DNA from: Comamonadaceae bacterium OH2545_COT-014
GTDB lineage: Bacteria > Pseudomonadota > Gammaproteobacteria > Burkholderiales > Burkholderiaceae_C
DNA: 64,000 nucleotides
Assembly: GCA_003859965.1 (NCBI GenBank)
Contig: RQYR01000003.1
Location: 1-64,000, forward strand
Direction: 5' to 3'
Below the pieces are notes generated by a model. It was not told the DNA's origin and did no database searches. It saw nothing but the letters and a program-made list of their open reading frames with translations. Position numbers and translations under genes: made by a program. Positions 4,646 to 59,791 of this stretch are shown in pieces; within the stretch, counting starts at the first letter, position 1; each line of letters starts with the position of its first letter.

Positions 4646-4806
4646 AACCTGTTCAAAATCTCTGCGCGGCGCGCAAGCAAGCGGATTGGGGCGGTCGACT
4701 TCCGTTGCAAAGCCTCGCCATAGGCGCGAGCCACGGCTGCGTTTTGCGCCTTGCTGCCCATCCCAAACCGCTGGTTGCCCACTCGCGCCGAGACTTTGAA
4801 CAGGTT
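4646..4806. repeat. 161-bp interspersed inverted-repeat element, copy A
   Basis: Ends are AACCTGTTCAAA (4646-4657) and TTTGAACAGGTT (4795-4806), perfect inverted repeats. Inside, near the left end, is AAGCGGATTGGGGCGG, and near the right end CCCAAACCGCTGG and ACTCGCGCC; these blocks recur in the copies at 48894 and 44568 (the latter inverted). It starts two bases after the purM stop and ends 45 bases before the SDR start. No open frame of note and no transposase, so it is a non-autonomous, MITE-like or REP-like element. Confidence 0.8.
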
Positions 4807-4851
4807 CTGACGCACCAGAACACAGAACACCAACACTTCAGGAGACTTTTC

Positions 4852-5625
4852 ATGCGGGTTCAAGGCAAATCCATCATCGTCACCGGCGCCGGCAGCGGCA
4901 TTGGCGAAGGCATCGCGCGCCGGCTGGCGGCAGAGGGCGCAGCCGTCATCGTCAACGACATCAACGCCGCGCCCGGCGAGGCCGTGGCCGCCAGCATCCG
5001 CAGCGCCGGCGGCCAGGCCCGCTTCGTGGCCGCCGACGTGACCCAGGGGCCAGACTGGGCGCGCTTGGTGCAAGCCGCGCAGGACTTTGGCGGCGGCCGT
5101 CTGGACGCCGTGGTGAACAACGCGGGCTGGACCCACCGCAACCGCCCCATGCTGGAGGTGAGCGAAGCCGAGTTCGACAAGGTCTACGCCGTCAACATGA
5201 AAAGCATCTACTGGAGCGCGGTGCATGCCGTGCCCGCCATGCGCGCCAACCCCGGCGGCAGCGGCGGCAGCTTCATCAACATTGCCAGCACCGCCGGGCT
5301 GCGCCCCCGGCCCGGGCTGACCTGGTACAACGGCAGCAAGGGCGCCGTCATCATCACCAGCAAATCCATGGCCGCCGAGCTGGGGCCGGACAACATCCGC
5401 GTCAACTGCATCAACCCCGTGTTCAACCCCGACACAGGCCTGGCCGCCGAATTCGCCGGCGGCCCGGTGGACGAGGCACGCCGCGCCAAGTTTCTTGCCA
5501 CCATCCCGCTGGGGCGCTTTTCTACCGCGCTGGATGTGGCCAATGCAGCCCTCTATCTGGCCAGTGACGAAGCCGCCTTCATCAGCGGCGTGTGCATTGA
5601 GGTGGATGGCGCACGCTGCGTCTAG
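4852..5625 (+). CDS. SDR-family NAD(P)-dependent oxidoreductase
   Basis: A classical short-chain dehydrogenase/reductase of 257 residues. The Rossmann motif is TGAGSGIG (11-18), the structural NNAG is at 89-92, and the catalytic set is S146, Y159 and K163 (YNGSK). Substrate is not deducible; related proteins include FabG-like 3-oxoacyl reductases and glucose/alcohol dehydrogenases, and the acidic residue after the second beta strand (VNDI) suggests a preference for NAD. ATG 4852 is chosen because it starts the Rossmann fold and follows CAGGAGAC at a good distance. It stands alone between the repeat element and moaA. The right end of the repeat contains TTGAAC, which could act as a -35 element for this gene, but this is inference. 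Confidence 0.85.
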   Translation: MRVQGKSIIVTGAGSGIGEGIARRLAAEGAAVIVNDINAAPGEAVAASIRSAGGQARFVAADVTQGPDWARLVQAAQDFGGGRLDAVVNNAGWTHRNRPMLEVSEAEFDKVYAVNMKSIYWSAVHAVPAMRANPGGSGGSFINIASTAGLRPRPGLTWYNGSKGAVIITSKSMAAELGPDNIRVNCINPVFNPDTGLAAEFAGGPVDEARRAKFLATIPLGRFSTALDVANAALYLASDEAAFISGVCIEVDGARCV

Positions 5626-5745
5626 GCGCCTGGCCCATCCTGGCGCGCGGCCTGCCCCGCAGCCAACCGCACGCGCCGCCCGGCAGCGCTGGGCATGGGG
5701 CGCCCCGTGCGCCTGCCCACCAGTCTTTCCCAGCCCGCGCTGGCC

Positions 5746-57125: not shown

Positions 57126-57218
57126 CGCGCGAAAGTGCGAAAGCCCGAAAGAGTCGGAGAGAGGAGTCCGCCACCGCTCCACCCCTGCCCGCGCCGCCGG
57201 CGCTGCGCCCGCTCCAAG

Positions 57219-59402
57219 TCAAGGCATGCCGGGCGGGCCGCCCCCACCCGCTAGCAGCGCGCGCATGCCGTCCTCGTCCAGCACCGGCACGCCCAAGGAC
57301 TGGGCTTTTTCCAGCTTGCTGCCGGCCTCGGCGCCAGCCACCAGGTAGTGGGTTTTCTTGCTGACGCTGCCGGCCACCTTGGCGCCGGCGGCTTCGAGCA
57401 TGTCCTTGGCCTGCTCGCGGCTCAGGCTGGGCAGGGTGCCGGTGATGACGAAGGTTTTGCCCGTCAGCGGCAGCAGGGCGTGGGCGGCCGGTTCGCCCTC
57501 AGGCCAGGTCAGGCCCACGGCGCGCAGCTGGGCCACCACTTCGCGGTTGTGCGGCTGGGCGAAGAAGGTGTGGATGCTGCCGGCCACGACGGGGCCGACG
57601 TCGGGCACTTGCAGGAGCTGGTCGAGGTTGGCGTCCATCACCGCGTCCAGCCGGCCGAAGTGGCGCGCCAGGTCCTTGGCCGTGGTTTCGCCCACATGGC
57701 GTATGCCCAGGGCGTAGAGAAAGCGCGCCAGCGTGGTGTGCTTGGACGCTTGCAGCGAGTCCAGCAGGTTTTGCGCCGATTTCTCGGCCATGCGCTCCAG
57801 CGCGGCCAGCGGGGCCAGACCCAGGCGGTAGAGGTCGGGCAGGCTGCGCACCACGTTGCCGTCCACCAGCTGCTCGACCAGCTTGTCGCCCAGGCCCTCG
57901 ATGTCCATGGCCTTGCGGCTGGCGAAGTGCAGCAGCGCCTGCTTGCGCTGCGCCGGGCAGGAGATGCCGCCGGTGCAGCGGTGGTCGGCCTCGCCTTCCT
58001 CGCGCAGCACGGCGCTGCCGCAGACGGGGCAGTGCGCGGGCATGGTGAACTCTGGCGCGCCGGGCGGGCGCTTGTCGGGCAGCACGGCCACGACTTCGGG
58101 GATCACGTCGCCAGCGCGGCGCACGATGACGGTGTCGCCCACGCGCACGTCCTTGCGGCGCGCCTCCAGCTCGTTGTGCAGCGTGGCGTTGGTGACGGTG
58201 ACGCCGCCGACGAACACGGGCGCGAGCTTGGCCACGGGTGTGAGCTTGCCGGTGCGGCCCACCTGCACGTCGATGGCCTGCACGCGGGTGAGCTGCTCCT
58301 GCGCCGGGTACTTGTGCGCCACGGCCCAGCGCGGCTCGCGCGTGACAAAGCCCAGCTCGCGCTGCAGGGCCAGCGCGTCCACCTTGTAGACCACGCCGTC
58401 GATGTCAAAGGGCAGCGCGTCGCGCTGCGCCGCCACTTCGGCGTGAAAGGCGATCAGCTCTGCCGCGCCGCTGGCCTGGCGCGCCAGCGCCGAGACGGGA
58501 AAGCCCCAGGCCTTGAGTGCCTGCAGCGCCTGCCAGTGGCTGGCCCAGTCCGGCCCGCCTTCGGCCGGCGGCGTGACTTCGCCCAGGCCGTAGGCGAAAA
58601 AGCTCAGTGGCCGGCTGGCGGCGATGGCCGGGTCGAGCTGGCGCACCGCGCCGGCGGCGGCGTTGCGCGGGTTGACGAAGGTTTTGGCGGCCTTGTCGCC
58701 AGCGGCCATTTTCTGGCGCTGCGCTTCATTCAAGGCTTCGAAATCGTCGCGCCGCATGTACACCTCGCCGCGCACTTCCAGCACGGGCGGCACGGGCAAG
58801 GTGGGCGATGCGCCGCCCTCGGTGCGCAGGCGCAGCGGCACCTGGCCGATGGTGCGGATGTTCTGCGTCACGTCCTCGCCGGTTTCGCCGTCGCCACGCG
58901 TGGCGGCCTGCACCAGTACGCCGTGCTCGTAGCGCAGGCTGATGGCCAGGCCGTCGAACTTGGGCTCGGCCACGTAGGCGATGGGCTGGCCCGCCAGCGC
59001 GGCCAGGGCCAGCGCGTGCAGCGGCTCGGCGCGGTGGCGCGGCTCGCTGGCCTTGAGCTCACAGCGGCGCTGCTCGCCCGCCAGGTGGTTGCGCACCTGC
59101 TCGTCAAACTTTTCGGCGCCAGCGGGGCTGGTGTCGGTTTCGGTGCGGATGCTGAGCATGGGCACGCGATGGCGCACGGGGGCAAAGCCGTCCAGCACGG
59201 CGCCGCCCACGCGCTGCGTGGGCGAGTCGGGCGTGCGCAGCTCGGGGTGCGCGGCCTCCAGCGCCTGTAATTCCTGGAACAGGCGGTCGTACTCGGCGTC
59301 GGGGATTTCGGGCGCGTCCAGCGTGTAGTACTGGTGGGCGGCGCGGTTGAGCTGGGCGCGCAGGCGGCTGACCCGATCGGCAGGATTTGCTTCAGTATTC
59401 AT
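57219..59402 (-). CDS. ligA: NAD-dependent DNA ligase LigA
   Basis: Seals nicks in replication and repair using NAD+; 727 residues. An N-terminal YDxLFQEL-type Ia domain, then the adenylation Lys K148 in [11 protein letters not shown], an OB fold, the Zn finger (CPVCGSAV, then [10 protein letters not shown]), HhH repeats and a C-terminal BRCT domain ([19 protein letters not shown]). An extra segment of about 30 residues (roughly 112-140) lies before the K148 motif compared with most relatives. It follows smc and zipA on the same strand, but a dispersed repeat element sits between zipA and ligA. Confidence 0.95.
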
Positions 59403-59791
59403 AGCTTGTAGCGCTGGATGGCTGGGCGCCAGGACTGTTTTTTTAACGGGGTTCTTTTAACGCAAGCTCGGCACAAGGCGCATGCGTCGCGTTTGATCTT
59501 GGGAGGGCTGCTTGGAACCTGTTCAAGGTCGCTGCGCGGCGGGCCATTCCAGCGAATGGGGGCGGTCTGCGGCGCTGCCAAACTGGCCAAACTGCACGGC
59601 AGTCACGGGCTACGGGCTATTGGCCGCTTTTTTCGCCTTGCGTCCTCAACCGTTGTTGCCCACTCGCGCCGGGACTTGGAGCAGGTTCCCAGAAAAACCG
59701 CCCGCTTTGGCCCGCGCGGCAAGGCCCCTGCCATCCAAAACCATAGCGGCTGCGCAGGGCGCAGACATCTGCATGCTTGCCCCGTTCGCTT
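59403..59791. other. 389-base gap in the zipA-ligA operon carrying a repeat element
   Basis: Most of the gap is the repeat at 59516-59687. GCTACAAGCTAT directly before the ligA ATG resembles the short hairpin family. No gene is supported. Confidence 0.55.
59516..59687. repeat. 172-bp interspersed inverted-repeat element, copy D
   Basis: Ends are AACCTGTTCAAG (59516) and CTTGGAGCAGGTT (to 59687), imperfect inverted repeats. Shared blocks are GCGAATGGGGGCGG on the left, CACGGGCTATTGG in the centre and GCCCACTCGCGCCGGGACTT on the right, in the same orientation as copies A and C. The most diverged of the four full copies. Confidence 0.75.

Follow-up and report, generated by a model that had tools for sequence, protein, structure and literature searches.

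Background

Several families of short, non-coding bacterial repeats offer a comparison for an interspersed element found in the first 64,000 nt of contig RQYR01000003.1 of Comamonadaceae bacterium OH2545_COT-014 (assembly GCA_003859965.1), a stretch referred to throughout as the window. Four full copies of this inverted-repeat element, with ends GAACCTGTTCAAA, lie in the window; they are Miniature Inverted-repeat Transposable Elements (MITEs) with the ends of an IS5-family insertion sequence (IS), and in their middle is a hairpin core of about 78 bp that recurs, bounded by other ends, in other genomes. One described counterpart of the element is MITEPsy1, found with ISPsy2 in Pseudomonas syringae, which is reported to be 100 nt long with the 4 bp targets CTAG or YTAA (PMC3189936). 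Likened by description, both are short and non-coding, with IS5-family-like ends and a short target duplication; they differ in the 100 nt length and 4 bp target of MITEPsy1, as opposed to the 3 bp TNA target of the window's family.

The core itself is comparable to the Beta-proteobacterial repeat element (BRE), described in 2011 as a 75-91 bp repeat in Bordetella with one locus transcribed, and with a locus at which the small RNAs bprJ1 and bprJ2 originate; excerpts of the same account list 29 copies in Polaromonas JS666 and 13 in Delftia, and also name Acidovorax, Rhodoferax and Azoarcus (PMC3110155). Compared by description only, BRE and core are alike in size and in the genera that carry them, and differ in that those excerpts present the BRE as tandem or single repeats and mention no transposon ends (PMC3110155). 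On this comparison, the BRE may be the same core, seen earlier in part. Correia elements, or NEMIS, of Neisseria are likewise MITEs with an internal hairpin, delimited by the ends TATAGTGGATTAA rather than the GAACCTGTTCAAA of the window's family. REP sequences are described as palindromes of 20-40 bp with a GTAG or CGTC tag at one end (PMC3733652). Along with REPINs and BIMEs, these resemble the core in forming hairpins, often in inverted pairs as at core loci of other lineages, and are distinguished from it by size, transposon ends and target duplication. ERIC sequences are also intergenic hairpin repeats of similar size.

Distribution of the repeat family

The end motif GAACCTGTTCAAA was matched 12 times across the window with up to two mismatches, against 0.52 expected and no more than three in any of 100 shuffles. 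The whole genome of the organism (3,107,355 bases in 86 contigs) contains 154 matches to the end pattern with up to three mismatches, compared with none for the reversed pattern; a chance origin of the repeats is ruled out by these shuffles and reversed-pattern controls. A full-length covariance model (R1), constructed from 24 full copies that included copy A of the window and none of the other three, made 141 matches in the genome, of which 31 were opposite-strand duplicates. This leaves 110 places, approximately one per 28 kb, a lower bound given that 150 of 4507 candidates were scored. Both flanks are present at 108 of them, and two are at contig starts. The 108 copies are 91-218 bp long (median 169), encode no transposase and are found in both orientations (56 plus and 52 minus).

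All four full window copies were found by R1, with E-values from 5e-43 to 8e-24. The called gene upstream of copy A (4645..4807, plus strand) ends in a stop codon, TAA (4642-4644), that abuts the copy. Copy B (44567..44774, minus strand) is 208 bp long and has an enlarged inner loop. The called gene upstream of copy C (48893..49063, plus strand) has a stop codon that overlaps the first base of the copy, and copy D spans 59515..59688 on the plus strand. End-motif shuffles and R1 matches confirm what the initial annotation had claimed from the window alone, that these four copies form one family, which occurs in both orientations and lacks a transposase. Its coordinates for them were one base off; and where it suggested, from a density of about one per 10-15 kb, that the whole chromosome may hold hundreds, the number found was about 110, a lower bound. 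Neither of the observations that would have told against such a family was made, as the copies are numerous across the genome and their similarity runs the full length of the element rather than being confined to the ends. The three internal blocks originally listed alongside the common ends are, by contrast, not all present in every copy: copy A has no block CACGGGCTATTGG, and has a different version of the inner stem.

Target sites and the parent insertion sequence

Target-site duplications, sought genome-wide, are present and 3 bp in length. Identical triplets stand on both sides of 32 of the 108 copies, and TNA on both sides of 39, at the exact element ends in each case; twelve other offsets between -6 and +6, half of which fall inside the element, gave at most three identical triplets and no TNA pairs. 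The window copies are without identical duplications, being flanked by TAA/TGA, TTA/TTG, CTG/TGA and TTG/CCA. A 3 bp duplication of TNA is typical of some subgroups of the IS5 family (IS427, IS1031).

A parent IS with the same ends was also sought, and IS5-family ends are present in the same genome. The window starts inside one of them: positions 1..84 are the left end, on the minus strand, of the parent element, cut by the contig start, and the reverse strand of this segment reads MRAKYPSDISPEQ, the start of a transposase coded from position 40 downward, with TNA (TTA, 85-87) following the end. This is the reason that a lone end had been seen at 72-85, which accordingly is not a remnant of the repeat family. 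Contigs C1 and C33 also terminate in this left end and carry identical start codons, making three left ends in total, and 16 further contig ends break inside the IS right end, carrying the last 22-26 transposase codons and followed by TNA in all 16 cases. Two decayed remnants of the IS lie in the interior of contigs C2 and C35. Elsewhere, genome G065 harbours an 843 bp, intact-looking IS (L091:1219-2061) that shares these ends and is bordered by TCA on either side. Its two overlapping frames scored 143 bits (P0002) and 96 bits (P0001) against the NCBIfam model of the IS5-family transposase, NF033580 (cut-off 110); the score was 244 bits for a relative in G015 that has a single frame. Transposase matches were found in seven of the nine genomes searched.

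In the window's own genome, the first 13 consensus bases of IS and MITE are identical. The repeats therefore combine terminal inverted repeats common to an IS of the same host, a target duplication matching that IS in size and preference (TNA, 3 bp), and high copy number of a short sequence without its own transposase. With both orientations represented, this supports their identification as IS5-type MITEs, in keeping with the non-autonomous, MITE-like nature first suggested for them.

Seven of the 19 IS ends directly abut a MITE and share a TNA with it (at loci L136, L139, L143, L144, L145, L033 and L414), where about 0.05 would be expected, as reckoned from the TNA density of the window. The IS seems to have a strong preference for inserting next to an end of its own type.

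Genomic position and stop codons

Genes were predicted with a simple codon-usage caller trained on 30 window genes, and position was analysed for 97 of the 108 copies, excluding 11 with less than 700 bases of flank. The spacers were tandem in 51 cases, convergent in 32, divergent in 11 and uncalled in three. A circular chromosome has as many convergent as divergent gene pairs, and hence the 32 convergent against 11 divergent spacers represent a bias (p 0.0019). The neighbouring gene's stop codon abuts the element in 33 of 115 gaps at gene 3' ends, a raw count. TNA comprises TAA and TGA together with the complementary triplets TTA and TCA; every TNA target is consequently a stop codon on one strand, such that a gene's stop codon can itself be the target and be duplicated by the insertion. 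These positions fit the suggestion that the family may play a role in shaping transcript ends.

No copy lies inside a called gene, where an interrupted gene would be called as two, and a crude check flagged seven of the 97 copies as possible gene interruptions. Copy A (4645-4807) is among those flagged and is a doubtful case, the flagged strand being antisense to called genes. The claim that all copies are intergenic thus falls short of proof genome-wide, given these seven candidates, at least one of them doubtful.

Structure and spread of the hairpin core

The core, in the middle of the element, is a hairpin of approximately 78 bp with the pattern CTGC-NN-CGTTGC ... GCGCCTTGCA. A covariance model of the core alone (R2) matched copy A at 4687..4766 on the plus strand with 59.6 bits (E 1.1e-11), copy C at 48935-49028 with 22.2 bits (E 0.0075), copy D at 59561-59651 with 18.0 bits (E 0.073) and, weakly, copy B at 44608-44656 with 15.6 bits (E 0.27).

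Structure was assessed using 80 cores from 72 loci, in an alignment found with and fitted to the structure. Paired cells made up 95.5%, compared with 71.0 after shuffling; 22 of 24 pairs had changed on both sides; and covariation was 0.574, relative to 0.134 in shuffles (0 of 500) and 0.052-0.105 for slid partners. As a stem-blind control, 114 different interiors were chosen by the exact pattern while ignoring the stem. Here, the pairs next to the motif were Watson-Crick in 392 of 570 cases, as against a shuffled mean of 170.6 (standard deviation 10.7, maximum of 1000 shuffles 204), kinship being ignored. Mismatches of the G-T and A-C types are equally rare (43 and 40, respectively, in one set, 22 and 33 in another), and the constraint therefore applies to DNA, or to both strands alike. 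Sequence is conserved beyond pairing in CGTTG on one arm and CGCCTTG on the other. Calculated as DNA, the folding of copy A is good (z -4.97), and so is that of four of the seven cores to which the calculation was applied (z -2.7 to -5.2). Two Rfam searches covering 23 loci gave no match on the element core above the gathering score.

R1 made matches in 194 of 399 genomes in the family survey (88 of 141 genera). R2, applied with E up to 1e-4 per genome, detected the core in 102 of 399 genomes in the order survey (54 of 159 genera) and 57 of 369 in the class survey (47 of 272 genera). All are lower bounds, with 7, 11 and 12 candidates, respectively, scored per genome, and the core counts rest on E-values without a shuffled-genome control. 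When 30 elements were compared, one per genome, a middle of 77-80 bp was common to them and the ends were not. An automatic scan for ends and duplications made a call at 44 of the 72 loci, several of them spurious, and was used only where ends had at most one mismatch in 14. The end types that it distinguished include GAACCTGTTTACGATC and GAGCGTGTTTACGATC with the duplication TNA, GGCAACGCTGAACAAGTC with CTAA, GGAAACGCTGAACAAGTC and GGAAGCGCTGAAAAAG with TTAG, GGAGGGGCTGTAGTACCC with CTTG, GGGAAAGACTGATCAAGGC with TTGT, GGAGCCTCTGCACGAATC with CTAG and GGCTCGTTAATGAATAAG with CTAAG.

IS partners for the other end types were sought through their ends in G299, G370, G025, G160, G225 and G088, and through transposases in G025, G160, G088, G225 and G013, with a terminal-repeat scan of 16 of 20 transposase loci. 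The yield was an IS in G088 with ends GAGCCTGTTTACGATC, the TNA end type again, and a doubtful, truncated IS in G160. Genome G025 is loaded with a core element of another end type, whose end AACGCTGAACAAGTCC was matched 212 times with two or fewer mismatches (reversed control, two). Twenty of the 72 loci hold a further core match, inverted relative to the first and mostly 25-31 bp away, in the same relative arrangement in 20 of 20; such double cores are found outside the window's family, at L226, L207, L229, L242, L221, L237 and 14 more loci.

A scan with the exact core pattern returned at least 118 stretches, 80 of them named among the matches listed, which are not totals. The genera among the matches listed include Comamonas, Acidovorax, Variovorax, Polaromonas, Simplicispira, Diaphorobacter, Curvibacter, Azonexus, Halothiobacillus, Guyparkeria and others, along with records from Streptomyces, Lachnoclostridium, Faecalibacterium, Planctomycetota, Omnitrophota and Elusimicrobia. 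Several of the non-proteobacterial matches have, as judged by eye, matching arms and flanking inverted repeats; model scores on these matches are inflated, as the exact pattern fixes 20 bases, and for two of them (L288 and L313) the fold is not clearly better than in shuffles. Some of them may be chance or misbinned contigs, and some, such as L281, must be chance. At the sensitivity used, the core was present in seven of 72,556 plasmid records and in no phage record, and the exact pattern occurred in six stretches of viral contigs.

Two further end-like motifs in the window, following TTA at 56161..56173 and TAA at 23772..23784 (both plus strand), had been put forward as lone ends of the family at 56162-56173 and, as a possibility, at 23774-23785. 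The motif is there in both cases, with neither a partner end nor an R1 element up to E 1 at either site; each is a decayed end or a chance match.

Relationship to other repeats

The two best matches of model R3 in one search, and its best match in another, were on Correia elements of about 106 bp, with weak E-values of 0.0025, 0.0091 and 0.0046. These represent three of four short Correia forms and two distinct loci, one locus being present in two strains as judged by position; none of the eight long forms (154-156 bp) was matched by R3, and R2 matched no Correia element. The pairwise similarity between Correia elements and core was reached by 18-50 of 2000 shuffles. A relationship of Neisseria Correia elements to the core is suggestive only. 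Two PLSDB records entered as plasmids (NZ_CP119140.1 and NZ_CP119142.1) derive from Neisseria gonorrhoeae and contain at least 40 Correia ends each; at approximately 2.17 Mb, their size is that of chromosomes rather than plasmids.

ERIC, which had been expected from its sequence to be a relative, was rejected, as neither R2 nor R3 matched four Escherichia coli loci (two sites). At L173:922-1075, an inverted-repeat element beside a core element scored 42.3 against the Rfam family sX9, a Xanthomonas small RNA with a gathering score of 44, and R3 matched positions 951-1045 of the same locus with 19.0 bits (E 0.0016 in 3.2 kb). By this likeness, sX9 and the core may be related.

Discussion

We consider it probable that the MITEs of this genome are moved in trans by the DDE transposase of its own IS5-family elements, and that their conserved core wears other ends elsewhere. 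Under this explanation, transposase from resident IS would act on the common ends, and insertion at a TNA that forms a stop codon would duplicate that codon and leave the gene whole. The core would be a structure at the level of DNA, kept as an aid to the persistence or movement of the element, and would acquire new ends when another IS supplied them; an IS landing beside a MITE with a common TNA could provide a route for such an exchange. From comparison of sequences, the recurrence of the hairpin inside elements with different ends suggests that it has a function of its own.

Several results weigh against this explanation. No intact copy of the IS is assembled in the window's own genome, its interior being unassembled. 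No empty site was found in the parts of that genome examined, where a search with joined flanks matched repeat ends only. No transposase was matched in G146, nor in G086 despite 70 end matches and strong R1 matches, an instance in which the element may have outlived its helper or the helper may be unassembled. None of the other end types could be paired with a matching IS, whether in the six genomes examined by ends or in the five examined by transposases. Three of the seven cores folded as DNA (L202, L288 and L313) are not clearly better folded than their shuffles, and the covariation was measured in an alignment fitted to the structure, with shuffles that ignore relatedness.

An alternative account of the conservation is that the core acts as RNA, with a hairpin in the transcript that ends, protects or cuts the message. 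This would explain both the conservation and the location at gene 3' ends, and agrees with the covarying stems and the bias to convergent spacers; precedents are the RNase III cleavage of Correia transcripts, as stated in a review (PMC10969869), and the origin of bprJ1 and bprJ2 at a BRE locus, according to the excerpts cited above (PMC3110155). A one-strand RNA should nevertheless be more tolerant of G-U pairs, and the mismatch counts reveal no such wobble excess; the elements are also found in both orientations. We regard this role as unlikely; a function exerted on both strands alike may be compatible with these counts. Pairing could also be kept without selection, if quasi-palindromes were corrected through template switching during replication, making the core a mutational by-product of palindromic MITEs. 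Whole elements are indeed long inverted repeats, and correction would erase G-T and A-C mismatches alike, as observed, but it should also render the arms perfect, and the unpaired CGTTG and CGCCTTG stay unequal across orders; this possibility accordingly appears rather improbable. Very improbable, finally, is a third possibility, in which a tyrosine (RAYT/HUH) transposase moves the core as a REP-like unit and the IS5-like ends were added later. The uniformly arranged, inverted second cores recall the pairing of REPs in BIMEs, but in the window's own genome both the ends and the exact duplications of TNA agree with a DDE transposase, and the unit is 78 bp rather than 20-40 bp. The anatomy of the element (its size, ends and target duplication) and the absence of a conserved GTAG or CGTC at the ends of the aligned 77-80 bp unit give no support to the REP-type alternative offered in the initial annotation, no RAYT search having been made.

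A broader and quite tentative idea would also be compatible with the results. The hairpin, its asymmetric motif invariant and its stems free to covary, could be a passenger of ancient origin that has survived one transposon family after another. Present in beta- and gammaproteobacteria and apparently, judging by records of Streptomyces, Faecalibacterium, Omnitrophota and Planctomycetota, in other phyla, it would swap ends so as to exploit any IS available, and be kept by a widely conserved factor that recognises its single-stranded form; Correia elements, the BRE and perhaps sX9 would then be its local faces.

No description of one core common to MITE families with different ends was found in the open-licence literature searched. 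Each MITE family is commonly regarded as the remnant of an IS of its own. The present elements reverse this picture, in that conservation is found in the core and not at the ends, and so point to a function of the core. A single covariance model detects such elements across orders, and may link repeats that have been named separately. The resemblance of the target to a stop codon could explain simply how more than 100 insertions are tolerated in one genome, and the persistence of small repeats in genomes becomes a question that can be tested.

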